From the NCBI RefSeq assembly GCF_000425305.1, contig NZ_AUDE01000009.1, positions 124,001 to 188,000 on the forward strand: DNA of 64,000 nt, given 5' to 3'. Below the pieces are notes generated by a model. It saw nothing but the letters and a program-made list of their open reading frames with translations, searched no databases and was not told the origin of the DNA. Shown here piece after piece: positions 27,765-58,152 of this stretch; the stretch's first letter is position 1, and every line of letters begins with the position of its first letter. Origin of the DNA: Psychroserpens burtonensis DSM 12212 (GTDB taxonomy: Bacteria; Bacteroidota; Bacteroidia; Flavobacteriales; Flavobacteriaceae). Made by a program: the position numbers and the translations under genes.

Positions 27765-29540
27765 TTAAAACAGTTTGTAAACAGGATATTGCAAATGTGA
27801 CTTTTCATAATTTTTGCTCTGTTTATGTAGCCAATCCAACTGTGCAAACCAATTATCAGCAAATTCTTTATTGAATGTCTTTTTTAGATTGAAAGCTATT
27901 TGTAGTTTTGGATTACTTCTCAACAATTCTTGTGCGAAGTCCTCCCAAACATAAGGTGAGAAGCTTTCTTTTTGTTGTAGAATCGTATCAAAAAAGTTCC
28001 AGCTAAAAAATGAATCAGGAGCTTGTGGCTCTAAGGTTTCTAATAGATATCTAAATCCGTTTTGATTAGTATCAATTATATAATCACCTTTAAAAAAGCT
28101 TACTTTTTCTTCGGAAATATCTAAAGCCAAATTATAGTGAGAGTAATGACCTTCATAAACTTGTTTTCTCGTCTCATAGCTTTTAATAGTATATGAATTT
28201 ACGGTAAGAGTCGTATCCTTTTCAAAACGTTTCATTTCAATGTTATTCAATTCTAAGAGTTCTAAAACGTTCCACCATCCTTGAGGAATTATATAAGCCT
28301 TTGGAATTTCTACCTCCAAAGTTGAGGTCATATAATTTTGATAGTTTATTTTTTTTGTAAATGGTTTATTTCGGTCATACTTTAATCGCTGTGCACCAGT
28401 TAAACCACTTTCAATCCTATTGCCTTCAAATCCTTTAAAATCTAAAATTGTTGTTTTTGTGGTATCAATAGACCATTGTAGAGGGTAGCTTTTTTTATTT
28501 CTTATATTTTTTACTGCATTTCTACGTAATTTAGAAATCGTCTCGCCTTCATTCTCAGTAATTTCTATCATGCTTTTCATGAGCTCATAAGTTCCTTCAA
28601 CACGCTTGTCATAAGGTTTTAGCATATGAGTTTCTACCATCATACCTAATGTATTCCATAAGGTTGTGTAACCTGTTGAATAACGGGGAGAATCCATAAA
28701 CTGGCTAAACCCTTGCTCAGGAGTACTATTAAAGACATTTACGTAAGGAGTGATGTCCCAATTTTTGTCAGCGAGATTTTGCTCTAATTGAGGTGTCATT
28801 TTAGTATGTAAGAATTCACCAAGTTCACCTCCTAATTTATTATGTTGCGTAAATAAATGCGTTAATGTATATTGGTAATCTGCACCATTACTCACATGAT
28901 TATCAATAAACACATCAGGTTGAACCAAATGAAATAGTTGAGCAAAGGTTCTAGCATTTTTTGTGTCAGACTTTATAAAATCCCGGTTCAAATCAAAATT
29001 ACGAGCATTGCCTCTAAACCCATAAGATATCGGACCGTTTTGATTCGTTCTCGTTGTTGAATTTCTGTTTAAACTCCCACCAACATTATAAATGGCTACC
29101 GTTACTAAAACAGTAGATTCAGGCATTTCAATTTTGCCTTGAACGATATCTCGAAATAACATCATTGTAGCATCAATACCATCAGACTCTCCAGGATGAA
29201 TTCCATTATTGATTAATAGAATACGTTTGGTTTTTCTTATTTCAGAAAAATCAAAATTTGAATCAGGATTTAGTGTTATGATATGAAGTGGTTTACCTGA
29301 ATCTGTTTCGCCAATACTATCAATTTTTACTTCGGAAAATGTTGCTGCTAGGCGCTCATAAAACATAATGGTCTCCTTATAAGTTGCTGTTTCTAAGCCT
29401 TCAGATTTTTCAAATTGTGTTGTAAAATCATATGTTTTAGTATCACTTTTAGTCGAACAAGACCAAACGCAAAGGGATAATACGATGATATTTACTTTTA
29501 TTAGGTTCTGGTTTTTAAATAGATATGTCAAATTGTTCAT
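27765..29540 (-). CDS. M14-family metallopeptidase lipoprotein
   Basis: 591 residues. A lipoprotein signal ends at Cys28 (lipobox VWSC), so the protein should be membrane-anchored outside the cytoplasm. The N-terminal zinc carboxypeptidase domain has ligands His115 and Glu118 (HPGE) and His215 (DNHV), with the substrate-binding Asn-Arg in LNRDF (185-187). The C-terminal 250 residues form an extra domain of unknown function. It probably removes C-terminal residues from peptides. It is divergent from the STAS-like gene. Confidence 0.9.
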   Translation of the reverse strand: MNNLTYLFKNQNLIKVNIIVLSLCVWSCSTKSDTKTYDFTTQFEKSEGLETATYKETIMFYERLAATFSEVKIDSIGETDSGKPLHIITLNPDSNFDFSEIRKTKRILLINNGIHPGESDGIDATMMLFRDIVQGKIEMPESTVLVTVAIYNVGGSLNRNSTTRTNQNGPISYGFRGNARNFDLNRDFIKSDTKNARTFAQLFHLVQPDVFIDNHVSNGADYQYTLTHLFTQHNKLGGELGEFLHTKMTPQLEQNLADKNWDITPYVNVFNSTPEQGFSQFMDSPRYSTGYTTLWNTLGMMVETHMLKPYDKRVEGTYELMKSMIEITENEGETISKLRRNAVKNIRNKKSYPLQWSIDTTKTTILDFKGFEGNRIESGLTGAQRLKYDRNKPFTKKINYQNYMTSTLEVEIPKAYIIPQGWWNVLELLELNNIEMKRFEKDTTLTVNSYTIKSYETRKQVYEGHYSHYNLALDISEEKVSFFKGDYIIDTNQNGFRYLLETLEPQAPDSFFSWNFFDTILQQKESFSPYVWEDFAQELLRSNPKLQIAFNLKKTFNKEFADNWFAQLDWLHKQSKNYEKSHLQYPVYKLF

Positions 29541-29579
29541 ATGTTGTTCATTTCTTTGTAAATGTCAATTAATTCATTT

Positions 29580-29587
29580 CAAAGTTA
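29580..29587 (-). promoter_or_regulatory. -7 box for the M14 peptidase gene
   Basis: The minus strand reads TAACTTTG, matching TANNTTTG, 40 bases before the peptidase ATG. No clear -33 element. Confidence 0.4.
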
Positions 29588-29625
29588 ATCTTAATTTTAT
29601 TTATCCTTCTAAACTAATAGCTATA

Positions 29626-30012
29626 ATGAAAGTATTTATTCTCCCTTTCGGAAAAATCAACTTGATTAATCCTCACATTGCCGAAGTCATCATTAATGAA
29701 GGCACAATCTTAGATAAACCAGAAGTTGAAGCCTATCAAAATTTATTGCGATCTCAATTAAAGCCACCATTTTCCGTATTAATAAATATGGAAAATGCCT
29801 ATTCTTATACATTTGAGGCGCAATTAGCGATGGGTGACCTAAAGGATATTGTATATCGAGCAGTTGTTGTGTATAATCATAATGCAGAAATGGCGACTAA
29901 AATAATAATGAATCTCAACAAAAATAATAATTGGAATATTAGGTTATTTAGAGAGCGACAGGAGGCCTTAGACTGGTTGCATATTAATGTTAATAATAGA
30001 AGTGCGGTATGA
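29626..30012 (+). CDS. STAS/SpoIIAA-like small protein
   Basis: 128 residues from the chosen ATG (MKVFILPFGKINLI). An open frame extends 47 codons further upstream but would run antisense into the divergent M14 gene, so it is not used. Alternating strands and helices (FSVLINMENAYSYTFEAQLAMGD, YRAVVVYNHNAEMATKIIMNL, NIRLFRERQEALDWLH) suggest a STAS/SpoIIAA-type fold, often used for regulation or binding. No catalytic motif is seen. It precedes ctlX by 47 bases and is probably cotranscribed. Confidence 0.72.
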   Translation: MKVFILPFGKINLINPHIAEVIINEGTILDKPEVEAYQNLLRSQLKPPFSVLINMENAYSYTFEAQLAMGDLKDIVYRAVVVYNHNAEMATKIIMNLNKNNNWNIRLFRERQEALDWLHINVNNRSAV

Positions 30013-30059
30013 TTCCTGTGCTTATTTTAATTAATTTAGCACTTCCTTAATTTTAAGTC

Positions 30060-30992
30060 ATGTTACAAACTACAAATACAATTTTAATGATTCGTCCCGT
30101 TAATTTTAGGATGAATGAGCAAACCGCTATCAATAATTATTTTCAAGAAGCTTTGGACATAAAAAACGCAGAAATTAACTCAAAAGCACAAATTGAGTTT
30201 GATGATCTTGTTGTAAAGTTGAGAGGGGTTGGTGTTAATGTTATTGTTGAGCACGATGACAAATCAATGGATACTCCAGATTCTATTTTTCCAAATAATT
30301 GGGTGAGTTTTCATGAAAATGGTGACGTAGGTCTCTATCCAATGTTTGCTGCAAATCGTCGTAGAGAAAGACGGGATGATATTCTTACTAATTTAGAAAA
30401 AGAAGGCTTTCAAATTAATAATATTATAGACTATACGAGTGCAGAAGATGAAGGTTTCTTTTTAGAAGGAACAGGAAGTTTGCTTTTGGATCGTATGAAC
30501 TCAAAAGCCTATTGTGCGCTGTCAGCTAGAGCAGACGAAGATTTGTTTATAGAATTTTGCGAAGATTTTGAATATACACCAGTTATATTTAAAGCCTATC
30601 AAAATGTTGATGATACGCGTTTACCAATTTATCATACGAATGTAATGATGTGTTTGGCTGAGCAGTTTTCAGTAATATGCTTGGACGCGATTGACGATAA
30701 GAAAGAGCGTAAACAGGTGACTAAAAGCTTAAAAGCAGATGGCAAGACGATCATAGTGATTTCTGAATCACAAATGCACCAATTTGCTGGTAATATGTTG
30801 CAAGTAAAAGGAGAAAATGATCAACGTTATTTAGTGATGAGTAAGGCTGCTCATGATAGTCTTACTTCAAAGCAAGTTGCAGATATCGAGGTCTTTTGCC
30901 CAATTATATCAAGCTCACTAGAAACTATAGAGACTTGTGGAGGCGGAAGTGCTCGTTGTATGATGGCTGAGGTTTTCTTGCCTAAAACTTAA
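30060..30992 (+). CDS. ctlX: Citrulline utilisation hydrolase-like pentein enzyme
   Basis: 310 residues of the arginine deiminase/amidinotransferase superfamily. Landmarks are MIRPVNFRMNEQTA, IFPNNWVSFHENG (substrate loop, about 76-88), LEGTGSLLLDR (acidic loop, about 135-145), His192 in IYHTNVMM and nucleophile Cys300 in GGGSARCMMAEVF. This pattern is that of CtlX, linked to citrulline use. It follows the STAS-like gene. The product of the DDAH-like enzyme at 11377-12291 could be its substrate, but the two genes are 18 kb apart. Confidence 0.85.
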   Translation: MLQTTNTILMIRPVNFRMNEQTAINNYFQEALDIKNAEINSKAQIEFDDLVVKLRGVGVNVIVEHDDKSMDTPDSIFPNNWVSFHENGDVGLYPMFAANRRRERRDDILTNLEKEGFQINNIIDYTSAEDEGFFLEGTGSLLLDRMNSKAYCALSARADEDLFIEFCEDFEYTPVIFKAYQNVDDTRLPIYHTNVMMCLAEQFSVICLDAIDDKKERKQVTKSLKADGKTIIVISESQMHQFAGNMLQVKGENDQRYLVMSKAAHDSLTSKQVADIEVFCPIISSSLETIETCGGGSARCMMAEVFLPKT

Positions 30993-31204
30993 TTCAGTTT
31001 ATCAAAAATATAGCTGCTTTTTAGGTACCCTTGATATGTATTGTTATCATTAAATCCTTTATTCTAAGAAATGATTTTATCTTTCATAATTTCAATTTTA
31101 ATGGTTGCATAAGGTGTTTCATTTAGAGTGCTTTAATATGGTTTGTCCTTCTCCTTTGTGAAAATTTGATTTTATAGGTATTAATATAACTAGGTATACT
31201 TGGT

Positions 31205-31238
31205 TTTTACTCACACTGCCTGCGGTATGTGAGTAAAA
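31205..31238. repeat. Strong hairpin in the ctlX-kinase gap
   Basis: TTTTACTCACA (31205-31215) is a perfect inverted repeat of TGTGAGTAAAA (31228-31238). Inside, TGCC (31217-31220) can pair with GGTA (31224-31227) around a 3-base loop, leaving a single bulged C. No T tract follows. Confidence 0.6.
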
Positions 31239-31506
31239 CGTTACTGGTGATTTCTATTTTCAAACCCATAGATAATTATTTACAATAGTCCAAATTGAAG
31301 AGCTGTACATGTGTTGCTTTCTTGTTTGACTTCATACACACTTTGTCCTTTATGTTTTTGTTGTTTAGCGTTAAGAGCACTCTCAATATGTAGGAAATAT
31401 CCTTTGTCTTTCTAGATTAGATATATGTGTAATGAAATATCAAAATAGGAAGTATCTAATAGAGACTGAATTTCTGAAACGAATGAGTAGTCTCGGATTA
31501 AAGAAA

Positions 31507-31610
31507 ACGACACTCGTACGTGGTTGATGTTTGTTTTTTCTTCGGAATTTGACGCTTTATCTTATTAACGAAGAACAGCCGTAAAAGGATATAAAAATAT
31601 AAAGTGTCGT
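31507..31610. repeat. Nested inverted repeats
   Basis: Outer arms ACGACACT (31507-31514) and AGTGTCGT (31603-31610) enclose inner arms TTCTTCG (31538-31544) and CGAAGAA (31569-31575). The arrangement is compatible with a folded RNA of about 104 bases, but the arms are short. Confidence 0.35.
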
Positions 31611-31679: not shown

Positions 31680-33734
31680 TTAATTTTTAGGTTCAATCTT
31701 AGGAAGTTCAACATAGAATTTAGTTCCTATTCCTGGTGTGCTTTCTACCCAAATACGTCCTTTATTTAGTTCAACTAATTCTTTGCAAATAGTCAAACCT
31801 AAGCCAGTACCTTTCTCGTTACTTGTCCCTCTGGTAGAGAACGTCCCACTTTGGAATAGCTTATCAATATTTTCTCTAGAAATACCAACACCTGTGTCTT
31901 CAACACAAATTAAACTTTTACCATTGTGATCAGAATTTGAAACGGTAATAGAATCGCCTATACGTGTAAACTTAACGGCATTGGTAATTAAATTTTGAAT
32001 TACGATTTCAATCATACTTTTGTCTGCATAGATAAAATCTCGTCTTGACTCATCGATAAGTATGATACGTTTTTGATCAACTTTTTGCTCAACTAAACTT
32101 ATTTTATTTTTAAAGACGTCTTGTATATTAAAAAGCTCTGCTTTTGGTTCTAAATTCTGCATTTGAGATTTAGACCAATTTAAAAGGTTGTAAAGAAGTT
32201 GCGATGCACTATCGGCATTTTCACTTAGCTCAGGGACTAAATCATAAAATTCTTCGCGTGAAATTCCATCTTCTTTAAGTAAATCTATAAAACCTTTTAT
32301 CGATGAAATAGAATCTTTTAGATCATGAGAAACAATTGAAAACAATCTATCTTTTACATTATTTACTTCTTCAAGATGTTTTATTTTTTCAGCTAACTCT
32401 TCATTTTTTAATATGATTTCTGCATTCTTATTTTGAAGTTTTTTATTGAGTTTGAATATGTTTTTACGTTTGAAATAAACTAGTAATAGGATTGTCATTG
32501 CAATTAAAAATGCTACTCCTAAAACATAAGAAATAGTTTTTAGTTTTTGAAACTCAATAGCTTCATCTTCACTTTGTTTTTCTAACTCTAAAGCTTTGAA
32601 GTCTTTAATCTCATTTAAAGACTCGGTTTCTAGCGGTTTTCTTATGATAGGTATTTTTGGCTGATTCTCTTGGTCTAGCTCGCGTTTTAATGTATAATAT
32701 TTTCCCTGCCAGAAAAATGCATTTTGAAATCTCCCTTTAATAGAATCTAATTCTTTATGCAATCTGTAATTTTTGAGAAGTTCAGGTTTATTATCGATTT
32801 TAACTGCGATGGAATACGCTTCATTTACTTGTACAGCAGCGGTTTTCAAATTTCCTTGTTGAATATTTAAATCACCCACGGCATTAAGTGCTCTTAAAAC
32901 ACCATCATTACTATTGATTTTTCTGTTAAATTTTAAACCCTCTACAAGGTATTTAGCAGCTTTATCATAATCTTTAAATCTTAAATATTCTGCGCCAATT
33001 CGAGGTAAAATTTCACCACGAAGTGTTTGATCTTTTTTTGGATTAAGAAGTGTTAACACCTTCTCATAATATTCTATAGCTTTTCTATGTTCTTTTCTTT
33101 CAGAATATAAAGTAGCTATGTTACGTATAGATGTTTTTATACCAGTACTATCTTTTAATTGTTCTCTAACTTTTAGAGCTTTGATGTTAAATTCTAAAGA
33201 CTTATCAATTTGATTTGTATTGTAATAGGCGTCTGCCAAATTATTATACGCAGAGCTTAATTCATCTTTAAGGTTTCTAGTTTCAAAAGTTTGAATTGCA
33301 GAAAGTGAATTTTGTAAACCTATACCATAATTGCCACGCTTAATTTCAATTAAGCCAATACTGTTATTCACTTTTGCGATTCCTAATGTATCACCTAATT
33401 GGCTATAATATCTTCGCGATCTATTAAAACCATCAATCGCATTGTAGTAATCATCATTATGAGCGTAAATTAAAGCTTTGTAATAATTAGCGTCAGCAAT
33501 TCCTTTAGTATGATTTAGTGATTTAGATAAGCGTTCTGTATTGTCAATATAGGTAAGGGCTTTTTTGTAACTCTTTTTGTTGTATAGTGCTTTTACTAAT
33601 CGTAACGAGGTTTCAACTTTTAATGAATCCTGTTTTTGGTAAGCTAATTCTACAGTAAGGCTATCGATCTCATTTGTTTGTGAAAAACAAAAAAGCGAAG
33701 TGCATAATACAGCTAAAGTAATTAACTGCTTCAT
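31680..33734 (-). CDS. TPR-containing sensor histidine kinase, orphan
   Basis: 684 residues. A signal peptide (MKQLITLAVLCTSLFCFSQ) is followed by about 340 residues of tetratricopeptide repeats, one membrane segment near residue 400 (YVLGVAFLIAMTILLLVYF), a coiled coil, a HisKA domain with the phospho-accepting His470 in IVSHDLKDSISS, and a HATPase domain (NLITNAVKF, ICVEDTGVGIS, GTGLGLTICKELV). No response regulator is adjacent. An inverted repeat ACCTTA-GT-TAAGGT (33735-33748) touches the start codon and a -7 box lies at 33760-33767, so an operator over the start region is possible. Confidence 0.92.
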   Translation of the reverse strand: MKQLITLAVLCTSLFCFSQTNEIDSLTVELAYQKQDSLKVETSLRLVKALYNKKSYKKALTYIDNTERLSKSLNHTKGIADANYYKALIYAHNDDYYNAIDGFNRSRRYYSQLGDTLGIAKVNNSIGLIEIKRGNYGIGLQNSLSAIQTFETRNLKDELSSAYNNLADAYYNTNQIDKSLEFNIKALKVREQLKDSTGIKTSIRNIATLYSERKEHRKAIEYYEKVLTLLNPKKDQTLRGEILPRIGAEYLRFKDYDKAAKYLVEGLKFNRKINSNDGVLRALNAVGDLNIQQGNLKTAAVQVNEAYSIAVKIDNKPELLKNYRLHKELDSIKGRFQNAFFWQGKYYTLKRELDQENQPKIPIIRKPLETESLNEIKDFKALELEKQSEDEAIEFQKLKTISYVLGVAFLIAMTILLLVYFKRKNIFKLNKKLQNKNAEIILKNEELAEKIKHLEEVNNVKDRLFSIVSHDLKDSISSIKGFIDLLKEDGISREEFYDLVPELSENADSASQLLYNLLNWSKSQMQNLEPKAELFNIQDVFKNKISLVEQKVDQKRIILIDESRRDFIYADKSMIEIVIQNLITNAVKFTRIGDSITVSNSDHNGKSLICVEDTGVGISRENIDKLFQSGTFSTRGTSNEKGTGLGLTICKELVELNKGRIWVESTPGIGTKFYVELPKIEPKN

Positions 33735-33759
33735 ACCTTAGTTAAGGTGTGAATAATTG

Positions 33760-34322: not shown

Positions 34323-36107
34323 ATGAATCTTCAGGAGATACTCTCACATAATGTAAAACAGGCTATTAAAGCTGTTTTTAATGCAGAATTACAATCGGTA
34401 GAATTTCAAGCAACGCGTAAAGAGTTTGCTGGAGATATTACGGTAGTTGTTTTTCCTATGTTGAGGGTTGTAAAAGGAAATCCTGTTCAAATTGGAGAAC
34501 AAATTGGTCAGTACTTGGTTGCTCATGTTGATGAGGTGAAAGCGTTCAATGTGGTCAAGGGGTTTCTAAATATTGAAATTGAAGATGCATATTATATCAA
34601 TTTTTTTAACGGTATAAAGGATGATTCTCGGTACGGTTTCATAGCACCAAACTCAGAACAAAAAGCAGTAATGGTAGAGTATTCCTCACCAAATACCAAT
34701 AAACCTTTGCATTTAGGTCATGTTAGAAATGTGATTTTAGGATACAGTGTTTCCGAAATTTTAAAAGCTTCGGGGAAGAAGGTCTATAAAACTCAAATAA
34801 TTAACGACAGAGGAATTCATATCTGTAAAAGTATGTTGGCATGGAAACGCTTCGGAAATGGAGAAACTCCAAAATCGTCAGGGTTAAAAGGTGATAAACT
34901 GGTTGGGAACTATTATGTGAAATTTGACAAGGAGTATAAATCTGAAATACAACAGCTCATTTCCGAAGGTCAAACAGAAGAAGATGCAAAGAAAAACGCG
35001 CCAATTATATTAGATGCTCAACAAATGCTTCTTAAATGGGAGGCTGGAGACGATGAGGTCGTTGCACTTTGGAAAATGATGAACAGTTGGGTTTACGACG
35101 GTTTTGAGACCACCTATAAAAGTATAGGGGTGGATTTTGACAAACTATACTATGAAAGTCAAACCTATTTATTAGGAAAAGAATTCGTTGCAGAAGGGTT
35201 AAAAACAGGCGTATTTATAGAAAAAGAAGATGGCTCGGTTTGGTGTGATTTAACCGAAGATGGTTTGGACGAAAAAATTGTGCTTCGTAGTGATGGTACT
35301 GCTGTTTACATGACGCAAGATATTGGTACAGCAATCCAACGGGTTAAGGATTTTCCAGATGTTGGTGGTATGGTTTATACGGTTGGGAATGAGCAAGAAT
35401 ATCATTTTCAAGTTTTATTTTTAATCATTAAAAAGCTTGGTTTTGATTGGGCAGATAGTTTATACCATTTAAGTTATGGTATGGTTGATTTACCTTCAGG
35501 AAAAATGAAGAGTAGAGAGGGGACTGTTGTAGATGCAGATGATTTGGTAGACGAAATGGCGCAGACTGCTGGAGAAATTTCTGAAGAGTTAGGGAAGTTA
35601 GATGGCTATTCTTTAGAAGAAAAACAAGACCTATACAAAACCATAGGTTTGGGTGCTTTAAAGTACTTTATCTTAAAAGTAGATCCTAGAAAACGTATTT
35701 TATTTGATCCAAAAGAGTCTATTGATTTTCAAGGAAATACGGGTCCGTTTATACAATATACATATGCTAGAATACAGTCTATTTTACGTAAGTCTAATAT
35801 TGATGCCAGTGTCACATTAAGTACAGATGAAGTGTCTTTACATGAAAAGGAAAGAGAACTCATAAAACAATTAGCAGTATTCCCTGAGGTGATTCAAAAT
35901 GCAGCAGACCATTACAGTCCAGCACTAATTGCTAATTACACCTACGAACTCGTGAAAGGGTTCAATTCGTTTTACCAAAATGTTTCTATTTTAGGAGCAG
36001 ACACTGACACTGAAAAAGTATTTCGTGTACAGCTGGCACAAAGCGTCGCTAATGTTATTAAGAACGCGTTTGGTTTGCTAGGTATCCATGTACCAGAACG
36101 CATGTAG
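34323..36107 (+). CDS. argS: Arginyl-tRNA synthetase
   Basis: 594 residues, class I synthetase. The HIGH-type motif is HLGH within NKPLHLGHVRNVILG (about 130-145). The KMSKS site has the form KMKSREG, common in Bacteroidota ArgRS. The N-terminal Add-1 domain and the C-terminal anticodon-binding helical domain (QYTYARIQSILRKSNI onward) are complete, and the protein ends with GIHVPERM, normal for the family. It charges tRNA-Arg. The coding region contains two exact copies, in opposite orientation, of the CTTCGGAAATG word. Confidence 0.97.
   Translation: MNLQEILSHNVKQAIKAVFNAELQSVEFQATRKEFAGDITVVVFPMLRVVKGNPVQIGEQIGQYLVAHVDEVKAFNVVKGFLNIEIEDAYYINFFNGIKDDSRYGFIAPNSEQKAVMVEYSSPNTNKPLHLGHVRNVILGYSVSEILKASGKKVYKTQIINDRGIHICKSMLAWKRFGNGETPKSSGLKGDKLVGNYYVKFDKEYKSEIQQLISEGQTEEDAKKNAPIILDAQQMLLKWEAGDDEVVALWKMMNSWVYDGFETTYKSIGVDFDKLYYESQTYLLGKEFVAEGLKTGVFIEKEDGSVWCDLTEDGLDEKIVLRSDGTAVYMTQDIGTAIQRVKDFPDVGGMVYTVGNEQEYHFQVLFLIIKKLGFDWADSLYHLSYGMVDLPSGKMKSREGTVVDADDLVDEMAQTAGEISEELGKLDGYSLEEKQDLYKTIGLGALKYFILKVDPRKRILFDPKESIDFQGNTGPFIQYTYARIQSILRKSNIDASVTLSTDEVSLHEKERELIKQLAVFPEVIQNAADHYSPALIANYTYELVKGFNSFYQNVSILGADTDTEKVFRVQLAQSVANVIKNAFGLLGIHVPERM
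34850..34968. repeat. Inverted pair of the CTTCGGAAATG word in argS
   Basis: CTTCGGAAATG at 34850-34860 and its reverse complement at 34958-34968, read in different codon phases (Phe-Gly-Asn and Ile-Ser-Glu). Part of the word family described in the findings. Confidence 0.7.
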
Positions 36108-36943: not shown

Positions 36944-37906
36944 ATGATAAAGACAACTGTTTTTAGTGTGGTTTTATGTGCGTTATGTTTTAATGCAATA
37001 GGTCAAAAAATTGATAATCTTGTGTCTTTTAGAGACATCGATAGTCCTCGTTATTTTAGGTTTAATTATGATAATGATTATTTTGCAGCAAGTGATGAAA
37101 ACTATACACAAGGTTATAGTTTGGAGTTTGTATCTCCCTTTTTTGAAAAGAATCCTATCAATACAATTTTAATTAAACCAGACGGTTTTGATTTGAGATA
37201 TGGCTTAGCTATTGAGCATATTGGATTTACACCAAATAAATATGATTTACCAGAAATACAATTTGGAGATCGACCATTTGCTGCAGCTATAATGCTAAGG
37301 AGCTCGGTGCTTGGTATAGACACAGAAAGGAAACTACGATTACATTCATCTTTAAATATAGGGTTAATAGGTCCTGGAGCTTTTGGCGAAGAAATGCAAG
37401 TAGCTATTCATAAAGCCACCGGTAATAAAATACCGAGAGGATGGCGACATCAAATTAAAAATGATCTTGTATTGAACTATAATTTAGGCTTGGAAAAGCA
37501 AATTTTAAAAGTGTATAATTTATTACTATTACAAGCGCAATCTAATATAAATATTGGGACTTTGTTTACTAATATTTCGGTGGGTTCAAATGTGGTTTTA
37601 GGGAGATTTAATAGTTCTTTTTCTTTTGAAGAAAAGAAAATAAATTTTCAAATTTACACCTATGCTCAACCTGTTTTCACTGTAATTGGTCATGATGCGA
37701 CATTGCAAGGTGGTCTAATTAATAGGAAAAGCCCTTATACTATTTCTGGGAGCGATCTTGAACGTTTTACATTTCAGTTTAACTATGGCGTGGTTATACA
37801 AACCAAAACACTCTATTTTGAATATACACGCTCAAGTATTACAAAAGAATTTAACATGGGTGATTTAGCAAAATGGGGAGGCATAAGAATTGGTTTTACA
37901 TTTTAA
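36944..37906 (+). CDS. LpxR-like (DUF2219) outer-membrane lipid A deacylase family protein
   Basis: 320 residues with a signal peptide (MIKTTVFSVVLCALCFNAIGQ). The N-terminal FRFNYDNDYFAASDENYTQGYSLEF matches the catalytic/calcium loop of LpxR (Asn-Asp and Thr), and GWRHQIKNDLVLNYNLGLEK holds the expected histidine. The C-terminus ends in an aromatic strand (IRIGFTF). LpxR removes a 3'-acyloxyacyl group from lipid A in the outer membrane; whether this homologue does the same is inferred. It overlaps the convergent YfiT-like gene by 11 bases. Confidence 0.85.
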   Translation: MIKTTVFSVVLCALCFNAIGQKIDNLVSFRDIDSPRYFRFNYDNDYFAASDENYTQGYSLEFVSPFFEKNPINTILIKPDGFDLRYGLAIEHIGFTPNKYDLPEIQFGDRPFAAAIMLRSSVLGIDTERKLRLHSSLNIGLIGPGAFGEEMQVAIHKATGNKIPRGWRHQIKNDLVLNYNLGLEKQILKVYNLLLLQAQSNINIGTLFTNISVGSNVVLGRFNSSFSFEEKKINFQIYTYAQPVFTVIGHDATLQGGLINRKSPYTISGSDLERFTFQFNYGVVIQTKTLYFEYTRSSITKEFNMGDLAKWGGIRIGFTF

Positions 37907-38447
37907 AGTATCCTTCATAGGTAATAGCTTGCTTAATATGAGCCAAATGATGATTACTATGCCAAGCATACATTCCAATAGTTTCATCTATTCTTAAACG
38001 TTTTAAATGATCAGGATGCACAAATTCTCTTGACAACTCCTCTTCGGAAATGTGCTTTAATAGCTGACCTAGTTTACTATGAAGACCCCTTAGTACATTC
38101 AAAGAGTCATCCAGAGTATCATCATTACCATCTATAAGTGTTGCCCAACGATCTTCATAAAATGGTTTTATGGTTGGAGAGTCCTCCGTTAGCGCTAACT
38201 TAAATCTTATAATACTGTGCATGTGGCTATCTGCGCAATGATGAACCACTTGCTTGATATTCCAGCCATCTGGTCGGTATGTCCAGTTTAATTGTTCTTT
38301 AGATAACACTTTTGTAGCTTTATCAATTTCCGAAGGAAAACGTTCAAGATCGTTAATCCATAAGTTGATCATTTCCGAAGAAATAGTATCAGGTTTTTGA
38401 AATTCTCCAATTGGAAACTTTAAGAGTTGTAATTGTGTGCTTTTCAT
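37896..38447 (-). CDS. YfiT-like DinB-fold protein (putative bacillithiol transferase)
   Basis: 183 residues from the chosen ATG (MKSTQLQLLKFPIGEFQKP). An ATG 27 bases upstream lies inside the preceding gene and adds an atypical tail. The fold is a DinB/YfiT four-helix bundle with metal-binding histidines in VVHHCADSHMHS and WHSNHHLAHI, and the NWTYRPDGWNIKQV segment is typical. YfiT-type enzymes transfer bacillithiol to electrophiles; the thiol used here is inferred. It follows the CutA-like gene by 4 bases. Confidence 0.85.
   Translation of the reverse strand: MKSTQLQLLKFPIGEFQKPDTISSEMINLWINDLERFPSEIDKATKVLSKEQLNWTYRPDGWNIKQVVHHCADSHMHSIIRFKLALTEDSPTIKPFYEDRWATLIDGNDDTLDDSLNVLRGLHSKLGQLLKHISEEELSREFVHPDHLKRLRIDETIGMYAWHSNHHLAHIKQAITYEGYFKM
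38042..38380. repeat. Three copies of the CTTCGGAAAT word in the YfiT-like gene
   Basis: CTTCGGAAATG at 38042-38052, ATTTCCGAAG at 38326-38335 and CATTTCCGAAG at 38370-38380: one copy in plus orientation and two in minus, all within one coding gene. Confidence 0.7.
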
Positions 38448-38451
38448 AATC

Positions 38452-38769
38452 CTAAACTTTGGCAGTTCCTTCAATTATATCTTGAGATTGAGACTCATCC
38501 ATATAAACTATGGGTACAGCATAAATAATTGGCGTATTTTTTGGATAGTGCACTCTTACTAGCTTATTGATGGTCTTAAATAAAAGAGCCTTAGTCGTAC
38601 CAACAATTAGAACCTCACTGATGCTTGTTAATTTTCCTTCTTGATTAGTAACACGTCCAATAACCTCTTTTAAAATATACTCGTTTGTTAAGAGTCCATG
38701 CTCGTGAAGTAAGTCTGTAATTCTATTAGCTTGGTCTTCGTTTTTTGTAATAATATGTAATTGAATCAT
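38452..38769 (-). CDS. CutA/NIL-like small protein, divergent
   Basis: 105 residues from the ATG giving MIQLHIITKNEDQANRITDLL; an earlier ATG adds 9 residues. The predicted strand-helix pattern (IQLHIITKN, then NRITDLLHEHGLLTNEYI, then EVLIVGTTKALLFKTINKLVRVHYPKNTPIIYAVPIVYMDE) resembles CutA1, including the HYPKNTPIIYAVPI segment at the position of the CutA LHPYEVPEI motif. CutA-like proteins form trimers; the function, often linked to metals, is uncertain. It is probably cotranscribed with the YfiT-like gene. Confidence 0.65.
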   Translation of the reverse strand: MIQLHIITKNEDQANRITDLLHEHGLLTNEYILKEVIGRVTNQEGKLTSISEVLIVGTTKALLFKTINKLVRVHYPKNTPIIYAVPIVYMDESQSQDIIEGTAKV

Positions 38770-38823: not shown

Positions 38824-41139
38824 CTAAAATCGTAATCTAAAGCTAATATTTGGGGTGATACCTAAAGATAAGTTGTCTACAGTTATAATATCACCATCAC
38901 TATTTTTCGCATAATACGTATTAATGACATTTTCTCTATCGAAAAGATTCCATAGGGAAGCTCCGATAGAAGCATCCAGTTTATTGGTGAATTTTAATTG
39001 ATACGTTGCAGATATATCTGTTCTAAAGTAGGCACTTATGCGATTACTATTAGGGGTATCGTAATCAATTTGAGAATTAGATTGATTTTGTAGTTCTAAA
39101 GGTAAAGTTTGCGGTCTGCCAGAATGCCAATTGAAACCTAAAGCAAATTTTAAATTATCAAAATCATAGGTGCTAGCAAATGTCACAGCGTGACGAACAT
39201 CAATATTATTAGGGAAAGGATTACCATCATTGAAATTATCAAAAATATAATCGTTTTTACTATAAGAATAACTTAACCATGTGCTAAAATAATCAAACTG
39301 TTTATTGATAAGAAAATCAATCCCTCTTACTTGAAATTTACCAATGTCCTCTATAAATTGAAATTGATTTTGAAAACCTTGACTTTGAGATGTGATGCCT
39401 TCCACGTCTTTTATAAAAGCTTCAATACTCACTAGTAGCTTGTTTTTATTGTAGTGAATGCCTGCAGCTGCTTGAACGCTTTTTATGATTGGGATGTTTT
39501 CATTATTAGATAAAATCCACCTGCGTTTTTCAATGCCTAAGAAATCATTTTGTAAATCTATAATTTGAGAGGTCGTTTGGCTTTTTAATTCTGCTAAAAA
39601 TTCTAATCTAAAATCGTTGTTTAATTTATGACTTACAGATAATCGTGGCTCAGTAAAAAACTCTGAAAATTTTTCAATAAAATTAGTTCTTAAACCTATT
39701 CTCGCATAGGTATTTTTATTTGCTGAAGTAAATTCGGCTTCACCATAAATGGAGTGTGTGCGAACCACTTCTTTTATAAATTGCTCTGTGGTTGGATTGT
39801 TAGTGTTTTCAGCATTGCTAATAATCACTTCGCTAAATTGATAACCACCATGTATTTTTAAATTATCATCGATATGATTGGTAGCATTCATCTTTAGACC
39901 TAGATCATTAACTTTATTATCTTGATTAGTACGTTGGTCATTTGCAATATTAAAGTTTGTGGCTTTTAAATCGTAACTGGTATAGTAAAATTTAGCCGTT
40001 GTTGTCAGTTTGCTATTCCAATATTTTAAATACTCAAAACCTGTAGCAAAATTATTTTGTTCTAGTTCGTTTTTTAAAGGAATAACAGAATCATCATTTG
40101 CTTGTTGATCATAAGATAGTCTATTATTAATCGTTAAAAAGTTAAATCTAAATTGGTCTTGATCAGTAATATCATATAAAAACTTTGTAGCGATATCGTA
40201 AAAATAGAAACGTTCGTTATTTGAGATAATTTCTGAATTTTCCTGTTGCGGATTAGAAAAATCACTATCCTGAAACACACGCTGCAGGTATTGGTCGTAG
40301 GTTGGTGTGAAAATAAAATCGGTTATAGACCGTCTTGCAGAGACTTGAATTTCGGCTTGTTCATTAAGTGGGACTTTTGCAAAACCATCTGCATTGATAA
40401 GGTTGAAACCTGCTCCAGCTTTAAAATTTTGATCTAGACTATTAGAGAGTTGCATATCAATAACACTAGAAACGCCATCACCAAATTTTACACTAGTTCC
40501 ATTTTTTGAGACATTTACTTCCTTTGTTAGATAAGGATTAAAAGCAGATACTAAACCAAAAAAATGTCCAGATTGGTACATTTTTATACCGTCCCACAAA
40601 ATTAAATTTTGATCATGAGTTCCTCCACGAACATTAATATTAGATACACGCTCATCAACACTCATAACACCAGGTAAGGCCTGAATACTTTGTAAAATAT
40701 CGGGTTCTAAAAGCCCAGGGAGAATCCCAAAATATTCAGTATTAATGTTAATTTTACCATCACTATTTTTTGAAATCCCTTTAGTTAAGTAGTTCGTAAT
40801 GACGACTTCTTCAAGCTTTTGAGTGATAAAATCACTGAATGGATTAGACCGTTTTGAAATGACAACACTAGTGTTATTGATAATGATAAAATCGAGATTT
40901 GTTTCATATCTTAAATACTCTAATGTATTTTCTCGTGATAAAGTTTCCGAAGGGAGAAGGACACTTTTATTGGCTATAGTCTGATCTAAATAAGTGAAAT
41001 GGATACTAAATCTGGATTCTATTATCGTGAGAACTTCGGCAAGCGGAAGTTTTGTTTTTAAATTTGATTGCGCATTACTGCTATTCAAATTCAAAAATAA
41101 TAAGATTATAAAAAGATAGAAGACACCTTTTTTATTCAC
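38824..41139 (-). CDS. TonB-dependent receptor with STN domain (FecA-like)
   Basis: 771 residues. A signal peptide (MNKKGVFYLFIILLFLNLNSSNAQ) is followed by a secretin/TonB short N-terminal (STN) domain (about 30-105), used by receptors that signal to an anti-sigma factor. Then come a TonB-box-like EEVVITNY, a plug domain (GGTHDQNLILWDGIKMYQSGHFFGL) and a 22-strand-type barrel ending in ISFRLRF. The carboxypeptidase-D-like domain common in Bacteroidota receptors is absent and there is no SusD. Its start overlaps the FecR gene by 8 bases. The imported ligand is unknown. Confidence 0.93.
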   Translation of the reverse strand: MNKKGVFYLFIILLFLNLNSSNAQSNLKTKLPLAEVLTIIESRFSIHFTYLDQTIANKSVLLPSETLSRENTLEYLRYETNLDFIIINNTSVVISKRSNPFSDFITQKLEEVVITNYLTKGISKNSDGKININTEYFGILPGLLEPDILQSIQALPGVMSVDERVSNINVRGGTHDQNLILWDGIKMYQSGHFFGLVSAFNPYLTKEVNVSKNGTSVKFGDGVSSVIDMQLSNSLDQNFKAGAGFNLINADGFAKVPLNEQAEIQVSARRSITDFIFTPTYDQYLQRVFQDSDFSNPQQENSEIISNNERFYFYDIATKFLYDITDQDQFRFNFLTINNRLSYDQQANDDSVIPLKNELEQNNFATGFEYLKYWNSKLTTTAKFYYTSYDLKATNFNIANDQRTNQDNKVNDLGLKMNATNHIDDNLKIHGGYQFSEVIISNAENTNNPTTEQFIKEVVRTHSIYGEAEFTSANKNTYARIGLRTNFIEKFSEFFTEPRLSVSHKLNNDFRLEFLAELKSQTTSQIIDLQNDFLGIEKRRWILSNNENIPIIKSVQAAAGIHYNKNKLLVSIEAFIKDVEGITSQSQGFQNQFQFIEDIGKFQVRGIDFLINKQFDYFSTWLSYSYSKNDYIFDNFNDGNPFPNNIDVRHAVTFASTYDFDNLKFALGFNWHSGRPQTLPLELQNQSNSQIDYDTPNSNRISAYFRTDISATYQLKFTNKLDASIGASLWNLFDRENVINTYYAKNSDGDIITVDNLSLGITPNISFRLRF

Positions 41140-50880: not shown

Positions 50881-51327
50881 ATGAAACATTTACTATTTAT
50901 TATTACTCTATTTTTTTGCTTCGGAAATGTGTCTTGCATAAAAAGTTCTTCGGAAATCGTCTTCTACAAATCTCATGAACCCAAAAAAGAACAAGCACCT
51001 TTTAGCGATGTAGTTGATGCCAACGGGTTTTTATTTCTAGCAGGACAAGTTGGGATGAATCATAAAACGAGAACGCTTGTTGAAGGTGGAATAGAAGCAG
51101 AGACGAAACAGTGTTTAGAAAATATAAAAGCGGTTTTAGAACAGCATGATTCAGGATTAGATAAGGTTGTAAAATGTACTGTGATTTTAAAAAATATAGA
51201 TGACTTTGCAGCCTTCAATGCGGTTTATAAGTCTTACTTTTCGAAGAAACCGGCAAGGACCACGTTTGCAGCGTCAGGATTAGCTGTTGGAGCTCTTATT
51301 GAAATAGATGTTATTGCGGTTAAATAG
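50881..51327 (+). CDS. Exported RidA-family protein (predicted lipoprotein)
   Basis: 148 residues. Residues 20-148 form a RidA/YjgF domain with the conserved VVDANGFLFLAGQVG, the arginine (Arg126) in PARTTFAASGLAVGALIEID and Glu141, the residues used for imine/enamine deamination. Unusually, a signal sequence (MKHLLFIITLFFCFGNVSC, lipobox NVSC, Cys19) precedes it, so the enzyme should be outside the cytoplasm. Two copies of the CTTCGGAAAT word lie in the signal region. Confidence 0.87.
   Translation: MKHLLFIITLFFCFGNVSCIKSSSEIVFYKSHEPKKEQAPFSDVVDANGFLFLAGQVGMNHKTRTLVEGGIEAETKQCLENIKAVLEQHDSGLDKVVKCTVILKNIDDFAAFNAVYKSYFSKKPARTTFAASGLAVGALIEIDVIAVK
50929..50958 (+). repeat. Direct pair of the CTTCGGAAAT word
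   Basis: CTTCGGAAATG at 50929-50939 and CTTCGGAAATC at 50948-50958, 8 bases apart, in different reading phases (Phe-Gly-Asn and Ser-Glu-Ile). Confidence 0.7.
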
Positions 51328-54381: not shown

Positions 54382-54383
54382 AA

Positions 54384-55019
54384 ATGAATAATATCACACT
54401 TGTTGTAGCAGACGACCATCCTTTGTTATTAAGTGGCTTAGTTGGTCAGTTGAAGAATCATAATTATGATATTTTAGCGACTGCAGAAAATGGGGCCATA
54501 GCCTTAGAACGCATTCTAAACCTAAAACCAAGTATTGCCATTTTAGACGAAGAAATGCCAAGACTTACTGGTTTTGAAGTGATACAAAAATGCATAGAAA
54601 AAAAGATAGAGACCAAATTCATTATTCTCACTTCGCACAAGGAAAAATCTTTTATTTATAAAGCAAAAAAATTAAATATTTCGGGTTATATTCTAAAAGA
54701 TGATCCTTTTAAGGAGCTTCACAATTGCATACAAAGTATAAGTAATGGAACGCCTTATTTTAGTTCTACCTTTACTAGAGTGTTTGAAGATGAGGTGGCA
54801 CCGCAATTAAAAACAATGAAATTATTGTCACCATCAGAGCGCGTTATTGTGCGCTTGATAGGTCAAGGTGAATCCTCAAAAGATATCGGTGAACTCTTAT
54901 CACTATCTCATAGAACTATTGAGAAACACCGCTCCAATATTATAGCTAAGTTAGGTCTTGCAGGAGATAAACATACCCTTATGTTATGGGCAAAAGAAAA
55001 CTTAGAGTTTATTAATTAG
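54384..55019 (+). CDS. LuxR/NarL-type response regulator
   Basis: 211 residues. The receiver domain has acidic Asp10/Asp11, the phosphorylated Asp55 in AILDEEMPR and Lys105 in YILKDDPF. The C-terminal LuxR helix-turn-helix is LSPSERVIVRLIGQGESSKDIGELLSLSHRTIEKHRSNIIAKLGL. It starts 2 bases after the kinase stop and is its partner. Target genes are not evident from the neighbours. Confidence 0.95.
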   Translation: MNNITLVVADDHPLLLSGLVGQLKNHNYDILATAENGAIALERILNLKPSIAILDEEMPRLTGFEVIQKCIEKKIETKFIILTSHKEKSFIYKAKKLNISGYILKDDPFKELHNCIQSISNGTPYFSSTFTRVFEDEVAPQLKTMKLLSPSERVIVRLIGQGESSKDIGELLSLSHRTIEKHRSNIIAKLGLAGDKHTLMLWAKENLEFIN

Positions 55020-55419
55020 ACCTAAAGTCTTAATCCAGGATTTTATGGACAGCCTAAGGAAAAAAAGTGTGGTTGATAGTTTGAATAATAAAAATAGGCA
55101 ATCGAGTAAAATTGATAATTAGGGTCTAGAAAAATTAGATTGGCTTAAATATTAAACGTACTCAAGACATAACATAAGTACCTGCTTAAAAATACTGTGT
55201 TGAGAAAAAAATAATTGGCTTGTATTTATTTGCTTCTAAAGACGGTTTAATAAAACGATTATAGTTAGTTTATGAGTCGTCAGTTTTACTAAATGATAAC
55301 GTGCTATAGATAGTGGTATTAGCAGCGTGAGGGTTGAGGTCTGAATTATAAAAAATTTTATATGTCCACTACCAAGAATAGTACTGATTATTAAATAGCA
55401 TATATTAAAATTAATACAT
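55020..55419. other. Convergent intergenic region without a gene
   Basis: About 400 AT-rich bases after the response regulator. I see no open frame of interest, tRNA or strong hairpin before the terminator at 55420. Confidence 0.5.
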
Positions 55420-55452
55420 AAAAAAAGCCTTGATTTCTCAAAGCTTTTTTTT
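55420..55452 (-). terminator. Bidirectional terminator after the DUF2911 gene
   Basis: AAAAAAAGC/GCTTTTTTT arms with CTTGA/TCAA pairs and a 4-base loop, T runs on both strands. It serves the minus-strand DUF2911 gene and could stop plus-strand read-through. Confidence 0.8.
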
Positions 55453-55472
55453 ACATCTAATATGGAATATAT

Positions 55473-56018
55473 TTATTTTACAAAAGGTACTGCAACACGA
55501 ATTGTTCCCCATCCCATGTGCATGTGAACACCATCCTTAGATTCTTCAAAGGCTATTGAAAAGGCCTCTAATGATTCTTTTCCTTCTGTAACAGGTACCG
55601 TTAATCTAGCGACATCATTTTCTTGTTTGTAGAAATAACTTCCCCAAACATTAAGATCTGTGCTAATGATTGCAGTCCATTCCTTTTCTCCAGGAATTAC
55701 ATAAAAGGTATAAGTTCCGGGTTTAATTTTAGTGTCTCCTAGAGCCATTGTTGTATACAGCGTTAATTCTACAGCTTCATTAGCTCCAGTTCTCCAAACG
55801 TCTCCGTTTGGTGCTAATTTTTCTATAGAACGACCATTAAGTTGAGGTCTGCCGTAAATTACTTTTATTAATTTATTTGATTCTTTGTAATTAGAAGGAA
55901 AAGACGCGCCATCCATAGGGCTTTTATCCATTTTAGCAAAGTCTTGTGCATTCATGTTTAAAGAGATGAGCATAATAAATGCCGTTGCGGTAGTTGTAAT
56001 AATTGATTTTGTTTTCAT
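55473..56018 (-). CDS. DUF2911 exported protein
   Basis: 181 residues with a signal peptide (to about residue 24, ISLNMNAQ). The body carries KVIYGRPQLNGRSIEKLAPNGDVWRTGANEAVELTLY, LGDTKIKPGTYTFYVIPGEKEWTAIIS and the C-terminal SIAFEESKDGVHMHMGWGTIRVAVPF, the pattern of DUF2911, a family of unknown function abundant in Bacteroidota. It is a single gene with a terminator, divergent from asnB. Confidence 0.88.
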   Translation of the reverse strand: MKTKSIITTTATAFIMLISLNMNAQDFAKMDKSPMDGASFPSNYKESNKLIKVIYGRPQLNGRSIEKLAPNGDVWRTGANEAVELTLYTTMALGDTKIKPGTYTFYVIPGEKEWTAIISTDLNVWGSYFYKQENDVARLTVPVTEGKESLEAFSIAFEESKDGVHMHMGWGTIRVAVPFVK

Positions 56019-56277
56019 GTTTTATTTTTAATTAAATTGAACATTATAAATATAAACCTCAAAGGTTTAATTATGGTCTTTAAAGTCGTAAACTGATGTT
56101 AAAGTTTACATTTTTTAGAAGATCATTGTGTTTTAAGAGTGATTTAATTTCATAAATGTATTAAAATTTAATTATTAGTTATAGTGTGTAACCAATAATG
56201 GATGTTATGTTTTATATATGTAATAGTAAATTCATATTTGTCCTATCAATTTGAATACTAATATAAAGAATAAAAAT

Positions 56278-57948
56278 ATGTGCGGAATTGTATGTGCGTT
56301 TGACCTAAAACAAAAAGCGGAAGATTTAAGACCTCAAATCCTTGAAATGGCTAAGACTATTCGTCATAGAGGACCAGACTGGAGTGGGATATATAGTGAT
56401 GAGAAAGCAATATTAGCGCATGAGCGTTTAGCGATTGTAGATCCTGCTTCTGGAAAACAACCGCTGTTTAGTCCTGATAAAAAACTCGTTTTAGCAGCGA
56501 ATGGCGAAATTTATAACCATCGTGCGTTAAGAAAACAATTTCCTGATTATCACTTTCAAACTGAAAGTGATTGTGAAGTCATTCTAGCATTGTACCAAGA
56601 AAAAGGGGTTGACTTTTTAGATGAAATGAATGGCATTTTTGGTTTTGCAATTTATGATACAGAAAAAGATGAATACTTTGTTGCCAGAGATCATATGGGA
56701 ATAATTCCGCTCTATATTGGTTGGGATCAACACGGAACTTTCTATGTTGCTTCAGAATTGAAAGCACTGGAAGGAACCTGTACTAAAATTGAATTATTTC
56801 CTCCTGGACATTACATGTCAAGTAAGGACGGAGTCTTTGTGCAGTGGTATAAGCGTGATTGGACAGATTACGATGCTGTAAAAGATAACGAAACAAGTAT
56901 TACGGCAGTTAAAGAAGCCTTAGAAGCAGCTGTTCATAGACAGTTAATGAGTGATGTGCCTTATGGCGTCTTATTGTCTGGTGGTTTAGATTCTTCCGTG
57001 GTTTCTGCAATAGCAAAAAAATATGCACAAAAACGTATAGAATCTGGTGATGAGAAGGATGCTTGGTATCCACAATTACATTCATTTGCGGTAGGTTTAG
57101 AAGGTTCTCCTGATCTTGCTGCAGCTCAAAAAGTAGCAGACTATATTGGGACCATACATCACGAAATAAAATTCACAATTCAAGAAGGTTTAGATGCTAT
57201 TAAAGATGTGATTTACAATATAGAGACTTACGATATTACAACTATTCGTTCATCTACTCCCATGTATTTAATGGCTAGAGTTATTAAATCTATGGGTATT
57301 AAAATGGTGTTATCTGGAGAGGGTGCAGATGAGATTTTTGGTGGATATTTATATTTTCATAAAGCGCCAAATGCAAGAGAATTTCATGAAGAAACAGTTC
57401 GTAAATTAGATAAGCTACATATGTACGATTGCTTGAGAGCTAACAAAAGTTTAGCAGCATGGGGAATTGAAGGACGTGTGCCATTTTTAGATAAAGAATT
57501 TATAGATGTCGCGATGCGAATTAACCCTCAAGATAAAATGATTAACGGTGAACGTATGGAGAAATGGGTGATTCGTAAAGCTTTTGAAGACATGTTACCA
57601 GAAAGCGTAGCTTGGAGACAAAAAGAACAATTTAGTGATGGTGTAGGTTACAGCTGGATTGATACTTTAAAAGAACTGGTCGATAAGGAAGTGACTGATG
57701 AGCAAATGGCTAGTGCTAAATTTCGGTATCCAATTCAAACACCAATAAATAAAGAAGAGTATTATTACCGCAGTATTTTTGAAGGCCATTTCCCTAGTGA
57801 TGCTGCGGCTCTAAGTGTGCCGCAAGAGCCAAGTGTGGCGTGTAGTACTAGGATAGCATTAGAGTGGGATGAAGCTTTTAAAAACATGAATGACCCTTCG
57901 GGAAGAGCAATTGCGAATGTGCATGCTAAGGCTTATGTGAAGGCCTAA
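56278..57948 (+). CDS. asnB: Asparagine synthase B (glutamine-hydrolysing)
   Basis: 556 residues from MCGIVCAFD; the open frame begins 9 codons earlier, but Cys2 must become the N-terminal nucleophile, so the ATG at 56278 is right. The N-terminal glutaminase domain (RHRGPDWSG, NGEIYNH) is followed by the synthetase with the ATP pyrophosphatase loop SGGLDSS (234-240) and VLSGEGADEIFGGY. It makes asparagine from aspartate and glutamine. It is followed by an intrinsic terminator. Confidence 0.96.
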   Translation: MCGIVCAFDLKQKAEDLRPQILEMAKTIRHRGPDWSGIYSDEKAILAHERLAIVDPASGKQPLFSPDKKLVLAANGEIYNHRALRKQFPDYHFQTESDCEVILALYQEKGVDFLDEMNGIFGFAIYDTEKDEYFVARDHMGIIPLYIGWDQHGTFYVASELKALEGTCTKIELFPPGHYMSSKDGVFVQWYKRDWTDYDAVKDNETSITAVKEALEAAVHRQLMSDVPYGVLLSGGLDSSVVSAIAKKYAQKRIESGDEKDAWYPQLHSFAVGLEGSPDLAAAQKVADYIGTIHHEIKFTIQEGLDAIKDVIYNIETYDITTIRSSTPMYLMARVIKSMGIKMVLSGEGADEIFGGYLYFHKAPNAREFHEETVRKLDKLHMYDCLRANKSLAAWGIEGRVPFLDKEFIDVAMRINPQDKMINGERMEKWVIRKAFEDMLPESVAWRQKEQFSDGVGYSWIDTLKELVDKEVTDEQMASAKFRYPIQTPINKEEYYYRSIFEGHFPSDAAALSVPQEPSVACSTRIALEWDEAFKNMNDPSGRAIANVHAKAYVKA

Positions 57949-57976
57949 AAACAGGCTTATGTAATACTTACTATAA

Positions 57977-58007
57977 GGAGAGGCCATTGGAAACATTGGT
58001 CTTTTTT
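57977..58007 (+). terminator. Intrinsic terminator after asnB
   Basis: A GAGAGGCCA arm pairs with TGGTCTTTT (three wobbles) around a 10-base loop, followed by T. Weaker than the other terminators here. Confidence 0.6.
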
Positions 58008-58017
58008 GTATTAATTA

Positions 58018-58152
58018 CTTCGGAAATGGACTCAATTGAAATGACGTTCAAAATAAATGAAATATGGCTTATTTCAACCTGTTTTTAAGTAGATCAAGAT
58101 CATGAAATCTAGGCTTAGACGAATGTTGTGATTTAAGCACATTTCCGAAGAT
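58018..58152. repeat. Intergenic inverted pair of the CTTCGGAAATG word
   Basis: CTTCGGAAATG (58018-58028) and CATTTCCGAAG (58142-58152) are perfect inverted 11-mers 113 bases apart in non-coding DNA, showing that the word is not driven by codon use. Confidence 0.75.

Follow-up and report, generated by a model that had tools for sequence, protein, structure and literature searches.

A genome-wide over-represented DNA word in Psychroserpens burtonensis: a candidate uptake-type self-recognition sequence

A single motif in the window and across the genome

Why does one ten-base word recur within and between genes, and on both strands, in a stretch of the Psychroserpens burtonensis DSM 12212 genome? 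The stretch analyzed, hereafter the window, comprises 64,000 nucleotides (contig NZ_AUDE01000009.1, positions 124,001 to 188,000), and the word is CTTCGGAAAT, built on the core CTTCGGAA. A first-pass annotation of the window had described it as over-represented and had listed three candidates, namely a DNA uptake sequence, a chi-like recombination signal, and the recognition word of an abundant DNA-binding protein. The over-representation is real: the window contains ten exact copies (plus strand, six; minus strand, four), and 100 dinucleotide-preserving shuffles gave 0.13 on average and never more than 1. When words with four or more occurrences were ranked under a second-order Markov model of the window, CTTCGGAAAT or an extension of it came first at k = 8, 9, 10, and 11. 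Among the three candidates, an uptake-type word fits the overall pattern best and is favored here, whereas a chi-like signal and a DNA-binding protein site fit less well. We consider, from sequence comparisons, that the word (a T-rich tract followed by CTTCGGAA, usually by A, and often then by T) is on balance probably a self-recognition sequence of the DNA-uptake type.

The word extends well beyond the window. In the whole assembly (3,976,448 bases in 68 contigs), CTTCGGAAAT occurs 358 times (192 + 166 by strand) as opposed to 28 times (13 + 15) for the reversed word. Thus, neither of the outcomes that the first-pass annotation had set against its own claim, a genome count no higher than that of a matched model or a word confined to the window, was observed. 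Motif, codon, and layout statistics for this genome were obtained from 864 kb of the 3.98 Mb (the window together with 40 further 20-kb stretches, from four contigs). In this sample, CTTCGGAA was the strongest 8-mer (270 copies compared to 41.0 expected under a fourth-order Markov model fitted to these 864 kb), the strongest 9-mer was CTTCGGAAA, and the top words for k = 9 to 12 were all shifts of one motif, such as TTTTCTTCGGAA (73 versus 0.81). In the full motif, a T-rich stretch (T strongest at positions −3 and −6) precedes the invariant CTTCGGAA, which is followed by A in 69% of cases and by AT in 37%. At least six T were found in the nine bases preceding 123 of the 270 cores, against a background of 5.7%. 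Single substitutions at positions 1, 4, 6, and 8 of CTTCGGAAAT gave words at no more than 2.0 times expectation, and some substitutions at positions 2, 3, 5, and 7 were enriched up to 8.4-fold. Further over-represented long words (CACCAACAATGGC, GTGGAAAACACC, GGAGGAACAC, and their shifts) look like repeats inside large genes.

The core is present 19 times in the window, and the near copies pointed out earlier indeed have it in common. Seven of the ten CTTCGGAAAT copies extend to the 11-mer CTTCGGAAATG, as previously noted, and two copies, at 58018 and 58141, are intergenic, also in agreement with the first description. The earlier coordinates were right with the exception of four slips: the copy placed at 50929 starts at 50919, and those placed at 34958, 38370, and 58142 were off by one. 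The copies are as follows (ORF, open reading frame).

28109..28118, plus strand: CTTCGGAAAT, within ORF 27765-29540 (minus strand; without Pfam match)
34850..34859, plus strand: CTTCGGAAAT, within the arginyl-tRNA synthetase ORF 34323-36107
34959..34968, minus strand: CTTCGGAAAT, within the same arginyl-tRNA synthetase ORF
38042..38051, plus strand: CTTCGGAAAT, within ORF 37896-38474 (minus strand)
38326..38335, minus strand: CTTCGGAAAT, within ORF 37896-38474
38371..38380, minus strand: CTTCGGAAAT, within ORF 37896-38474
50919..50928, plus strand: CTTCGGAAAT, close to where an open frame starts with ATG at 50881 (as judged by visual inspection)
50948..50957, plus strand: CTTCGGAAAT, in the open frame from ATG 50881, in another reading phase than the 50919 copy
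58018..58027, plus strand: CTTCGGAAAT, intergenic, between an asparagine synthase-like ORF (end 57948) and gyrB (start 58391)
58141..58150, minus strand: CTTCGGAAAT, intergenic, upstream of gyrB, in the same stretch as the 58018 copy
5281..5288, plus strand: core CTTCGGAA, then TG; identical in congener G006
9104..9111, plus strand: core CTTCGGAA; identical in congener G006
16609..16616, minus strand: core CTTCGGAA; identical in congener G006
25087..25094, minus strand: core CTTCGGAA, context TCTTCGGAAAATC
29330..29337, plus strand: core CTTCGGAA, context CTTCGGAAAATG
31540..31547, plus strand: core CTTCGGAA, preceded by a T run; between ORFs 30060-30992 and 31680-33734
40945..40952, minus strand: core CTTCGGAA
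63036..63043, plus strand: core CTTCGGAA, context CTTCGGAAAACG
63265..63272, minus strand: core CTTCGGAA, context CTTCGGAAGG

Recurrent peptide readings of the core, such as Ile-Ser-Glu-Glu (20 of 230), could suggest that the word is a side effect of codon use, amino-acid use, or base composition. The probability left to this explanation is negligible, since it is refuted by synonymous shuffles retaining the amino acids and the codons of each gene: the 705 ORFs (called as the longest open frames of at least 240 bases that do not overlap) contain CTTCGGAA 230 times, and 60 shuffles gave 20.0 ± 4.6 copies, with a maximum of 29. Codon preference as the cause, already dismissed in the first description, is thus excluded. 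By the same procedure, TTTCTTCGGAA was present 75 times compared to 2.0, and CTTCGGAA ranked first among the 20,326 8-mers with ten or more occurrences inside genes. Within genes, 119 cores are in sense and 111 in antisense orientation, with every phase represented and frame 0 rare, and the density of cores was no lower in intergenic regions (0.385 per kb) than in ORFs (0.303 per kb).

The layout of the cores was also analyzed. The spacing between them is random (coefficient of variation 0.98, compared to 1.00 ± 0.06), and the proposal that copies often come in close pairs was not borne out, as the 21 neighboring pairs less than 200 bases apart did not differ significantly from the 16.4 ± 3.9 given by random placement. 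When strands were assigned by GC skew, cores were split 120:131 and genes 280:194, showing no replication-strand bias for cores; nor do the cores have the strand polarity along replichores that is typical of FtsK-orienting polar sequences (KOPS). Chi sites are typically biased towards the leading strand, more weakly in some bacteria, and the known ones are 5 to 8 bases long. A chi-like recombination signal read by an AddAB-type enzyme would also be genome-wide and partly codon-independent, and AddAB-like PD-(D/E)XK genes (PF12705) are present in all 23 Psychroserpens genomes (two matches in 22 of them and one in G014). However, the strand split is even, the motif including its T tract exceeds the length of known chi sites, and these enzymes are common to congeners at both ends of the range, 26 and 640 copies of the word. 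We therefore find a chi-like signal rather improbable. Within the 864 kb examined, the layout of the word speaks against both chi and KOPS.

Word load among relatives and the fate of individual sites

Among the 23 Psychroserpens genomes, counts of CTTCGGAAAT range from 26 to 640, and 11 genomes have at least five times the count of the reversed control. Some species carry the word at 12 to 34 times this control and sister species are at background. In the gyrB tree, a single clade (100/100) brings together P. burtonensis (G000, 358 copies), G002 (640), G018 (437), and G017 (291) with G003 (28) and G006 (32). Separating word-rich from word-poor genomes at 200 copies requires at least five changes on this tree, in which only 4 of the 20 inner branches are well supported. 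The word is present genome-wide, is not driven by codons, and evolves under a force that is not the same in sister species. Such a patchy presence recalls the spread of defence systems, and the word might mark self DNA for defence or for another discrimination system unrelated to uptake, which we regard as quite improbable.

At the family level, 12 of 249 genomes have at least 100 copies, i.e., two from Psychroserpens and ten from eight other genera, the highest count being 605 in G097. In this genome, AT is commoner after CTTCGGAA plus A than in P. burtonensis (16 of 23 versus 101 of 270, p 0.003), in a small sample. Among 22-kb loci, those of Winogradskyella tangerina and Arcticiflavibacter luteus each have seven cores, and other Winogradskyella loci have zero to three. 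In the order (196 genomes), none of the 166 genomes outside the family exceeded 57 copies; some genomes of group f5 have a mild excess (for example, 53 versus 9). The core itself is weakly raised in the word-poor congeners G005, G006, G014, and G003 (28/6.8, 36/7.3, 25/8.5, and 6/2.1, observed/expected, respectively), which may be the relic of a lost preference.

In parallel, individual sites were compared between genomes. Fourteen of 24 aligned P. burtonensis cores are identical in the word-rich G002 (79.8% identity; binomial p 6e-6); the corresponding share is 17.1% for other 8-mers containing four G/C and 12.7% for those with a CpG. In the word-poor G014 (74.3% identity), only 4 of 59 cores are identical, for a baseline of 10.4% (7.1% with CpG). 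Gaps were seen at 0 of 24 sites aligned to G002, at 2 of 59 aligned to G014, and at 1 of 33 considered from the G002 side. These conservation statistics cover G002 and G014; five other relatives gave too little aligned sequence or none. In addition, alignment of the window to G006 covered ten cores, three of which are identical and seven altered by substitution, and the aligned parts of G006 contain six cores, three of them common to both genomes. The core-identity and gap counts against G002, G014, and G006 indicate, at the level of sequence, that copies of the word originate by substitution and are kept only between genomes in which the word is abundant.

The same data bear on a structural origin. 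One could envisage a terminator, the trace left by an inserted element, or an RNA or DNA hairpin (TTTC-TTCG-GAAA with a UUCG loop), as TTTCTTCGGAAA can be drawn with a TTCG loop (n = 57 on each strand count). Pairing of the flanks is nevertheless at or below independence (for example, 0.527 versus 0.555 for −1/+8), other stems around TTCG are rare (TTTC 57, the next 3), and sense and antisense copies are equal in number; orthologous sites differ by substitution, with the few gaps given above. In the absence of stem covariation and of any gap excess, these readings are ruled out in this form, and we leave them hardly any probability.

A site for a cytoplasmic DNA-binding protein (nucleoid-associated, chromosome-organizing, or regulatory) with hundreds of targets would account for a sharp core with a fixed flank, a genome-wide and strand-symmetric distribution, and the retention of sites between word-rich species. 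Against this explanation, which we consider unlikely, the density is similar in genes and in intergenic regions, the sites are unclustered in the 864 kb, and they are almost gone in the close sisters G003 and G006 inside the 100/100 clade. Such a near-loss makes a role in chromosome upkeep hardly compatible with the data. An uptake-type word fits best because there is no replication-strand bias, because spacing is random and both strands are used, and because copy numbers diverge among congeners despite the presence of AddAB-like genes throughout.

A putative pilus-independent uptake route and candidate readers

If the word is an uptake sequence, a surface protein of the competent cell would bind DNA carrying it, and related, word-bearing DNA would be preferentially taken up and recombined. 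The word would then accumulate at tolerant positions genome-wide and would decay by mutation where the uptake preference was lost. The word reader would presumably be the uptake receptor, and DNA would enter by the pilus-independent route of Riemerella, i.e., via an outer-membrane barrel and a DUF5689 lipoprotein, then ComEC, homologues of which are present. Indeed, ComEC was found in 23 of 23 Psychroserpens genomes (locus L108 in P. burtonensis), as was a strong DUF5689 match. At locus L107 of P. burtonensis, a barrel-like protein with a carboxypeptidase-regulatory domain (PF13620; 6352-9201) is followed by a DUF5689/DUF5017 lipoprotein (9250-10674), so that the Riemerella-type layout, taken here as both proteins plus ComEC, is present. 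With this gene content, ComEC and a Riemerella-type operon, the host may be naturally transformable.

Several other features of these loci were recorded. A gene for a secreted Exo_endo_phos_3 nuclease (L107, 5147-6214, minus strand) lies divergently upstream of the barrel/lipoprotein pair, and ORFs are found in a similar position in G002, G006, and G008. The barrel protein is divergent in G002, G003, and G006, with 59-63% identity to the others and 86-90% among themselves, and the A. luteus lipoprotein resembles the lipoproteins of these three genomes at both ends (loci L116, L117, L118, and L308). The DUF5689 lipoprotein has a modular C-terminal domain, which is swapped between species, since G014/G015 and G010/G016 are alike N-terminally and have different C-terminal types (L076-L098); one C-terminal type is nearly identical in 13 of the 23 congeners.

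The candidate readers were then compared with word counts. Presence of the DUF5689 operon was rejected as a predictor: of the 249 family genomes, 228 have it, and since most of these are word-poor, it predicts nothing (11 of 12 word-rich genomes versus 217 of 237 others, p 1). The C-terminal type of the lipoprotein is associated with word richness within the genus (p 0.01) and, at a match threshold of 140 bits that we chose ourselves, in the family (8 of 12 word-rich genomes versus 57 of 237, p 0.003) and in the family without Psychroserpens (6 of 10 versus 57 of 237, p 0.02). It is neither needed nor sufficient, as G056 (9 copies) and G091 (7 copies) have close C-termini, and another type is present in G002 despite its 640 copies. 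The predicted structure of the lipoprotein (pLDDT 87.9, pTM 0.67) gave jelly-roll adhesin, MAM, and sugar-binding domains as best Foldseek matches; no DNA-binding fold was among these best matches, and the structure is therefore neutral on word reading.

Eight of 23 congeners encode a second DUF5689 protein (L106, 1643-3400, minus strand), predicted to be secreted by the type IX secretion system, which matches DUF5689 weakly and varies in its N-terminal part. Its presence goes with word count inside the genus (p 0.0007, but with only three independent pairs on the gyrB tree). Outside the genus, it was found in 3 of 13 word-richer and 2 of 24 word-poor genomes among the matches listed (p 0.32). 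It was not retained as the word reader, since the link is unclear outside the genus and after allowing for kinship.

These negative results for the operon and for the C-terminal type weigh against the uptake reading, as do several others. The type IV pilus ATPase PF00437 is below cut-off in P. burtonensis (19.4 versus 24.9 bits) and in 12 of 23 congeners in all, including the word-rich G007, G008, G017, and G018, and pilus presence has no relation to word count in the genus (p 0.83), so that a link between type IV pili and the word was rejected. This T2SSE/PilB-type ATPase is patchily distributed, being above cut-off in G002, G004, G005, G009, G011, G012, G013, and G019-G022 (11 of 23). Since the pilus machine is missing from P. 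burtonensis, uptake would proceed via the pilus-independent Riemerella-type operon, and the uptake reading is favored rather than established. Moreover, the word-poor congeners yielded no alternative word of comparable strength (sequence searched: G005, 200 kb; G006 and G014, 280 kb each; G003, 80 kb), a result that speaks against a simple dialect model. The intergenic excess of the cores is small (15% of cores in 12% of bases), the sample is limited to 864 kb of 3.98 Mb, and genes were called as simple ORFs.

Comparison with known recognition words and uptake systems

A more specific proposal, which is possible but which we put forward with considerable reserve, is that Psychroserpens and its word-rich relatives would have an uptake-word system of independent origin, the third such system and one belonging to Bacteroidota, which would work without type IV pili. 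A Riemerella-type surface protein or a partner would read CTTCGGAA, and the preference would toggle between sister species, leading to 640 copies or to background within one genus. If true, self-recognition words would extend beyond two proteobacterial families, a pilus-tip receptor would be dispensable, and the self-preference reported for Riemerella columbina would be explained. DNA with or without the word would provide a direct assay for pilus-independent uptake, and sister species differing in word load would offer a natural comparison. Even with another protein as reader, a word at 12- to 34-fold in some species and at background in their sisters would reveal a genome-wide force that is as yet unexplained.

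Chi (RecBCD/AddAB) and KOPS are, like the word described here, genome-wide oriented words. Unlike them, our word has no replication-strand bias and has been lost in congeners retaining AddAB-like enzymes: rather than being common to relatives that have the enzyme, it varies between 26 and 640 copies in 23 genomes with PF12705. Sites of the Noc, SlmA, and matS type cluster regionally; the cores are randomly spaced in 864 kb from four contigs, a sample that is not a closed map of all sites.

In form, the word is close to the uptake signal sequence (USS) found in Haemophilus influenzae and other Pasteurellaceae. Both have a short, sharp core with a one-sided AT-rich flank, occur hundreds of times in every phase and on either strand, and originate by substitution. 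In contrast to the USS, CTTCGGAA is a different word in a host belonging to Bacteroidota, with no type IV pilus ATPase above cut-off and a weak intergenic excess. In Neisseriaceae, the DNA uptake sequence (DUS), whose reader is the minor pilin ComP, is likewise a genome-wide word in a naturally transforming family, with copy number and flanks varying among relatives. Unlike the DUS, our word is not enriched in close inverted pairs, its genome lacks the pilus ATPase, and no clear dialect words were found in the word-poor congeners searched. A pilus-dependent DUS/USS machine with a minor-pilin receptor therefore does not match P. burtonensis; with the ATPase absent and not tracking word count, the machine, if this is an uptake word, would differ from those of the two known families.

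According to a 2025 paper, uptake words are known only from Neisseriaceae and Pasteurellaceae (PMC12616744). Among the papers listed by our literature searches, none was found on an uptake word in Bacteroidota, and such a word would be new for the phylum. Three general features of uptake words are observed here, namely a genome-wide excess, a presence on both strands, in genes and in intergenic regions without strand bias, and an origin by substitution followed by maintenance.

With regard to uptake itself, Riemerella, in which natural transformation is known for this family, offers a close counterpart. A transposon screen in R. anatipestifer identified ComEC, DprA, ComF, RecA, and four unfamiliar genes as essential for transformation; two of the four encode a carboxypeptidase-regulatory-domain protein of the outer membrane and its DUF5689/DUF5017 neighbor, and homologues of the four were reported for Psychroserpens (PMC8459023). 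R. columbina was described as preferring its own DNA, and the same study, which sought words by raw k-mer counts, listed only A/T-rich ones (PMC7965970). In contrast to P. burtonensis, no word is known for Riemerella. The type IV pilus-independent system of Riemerella (operon RA0C_RS04915/RS04920) and P. burtonensis nonetheless share a PF13620 protein followed by a DUF5689/DUF5017 lipoprotein, together with ComEC.

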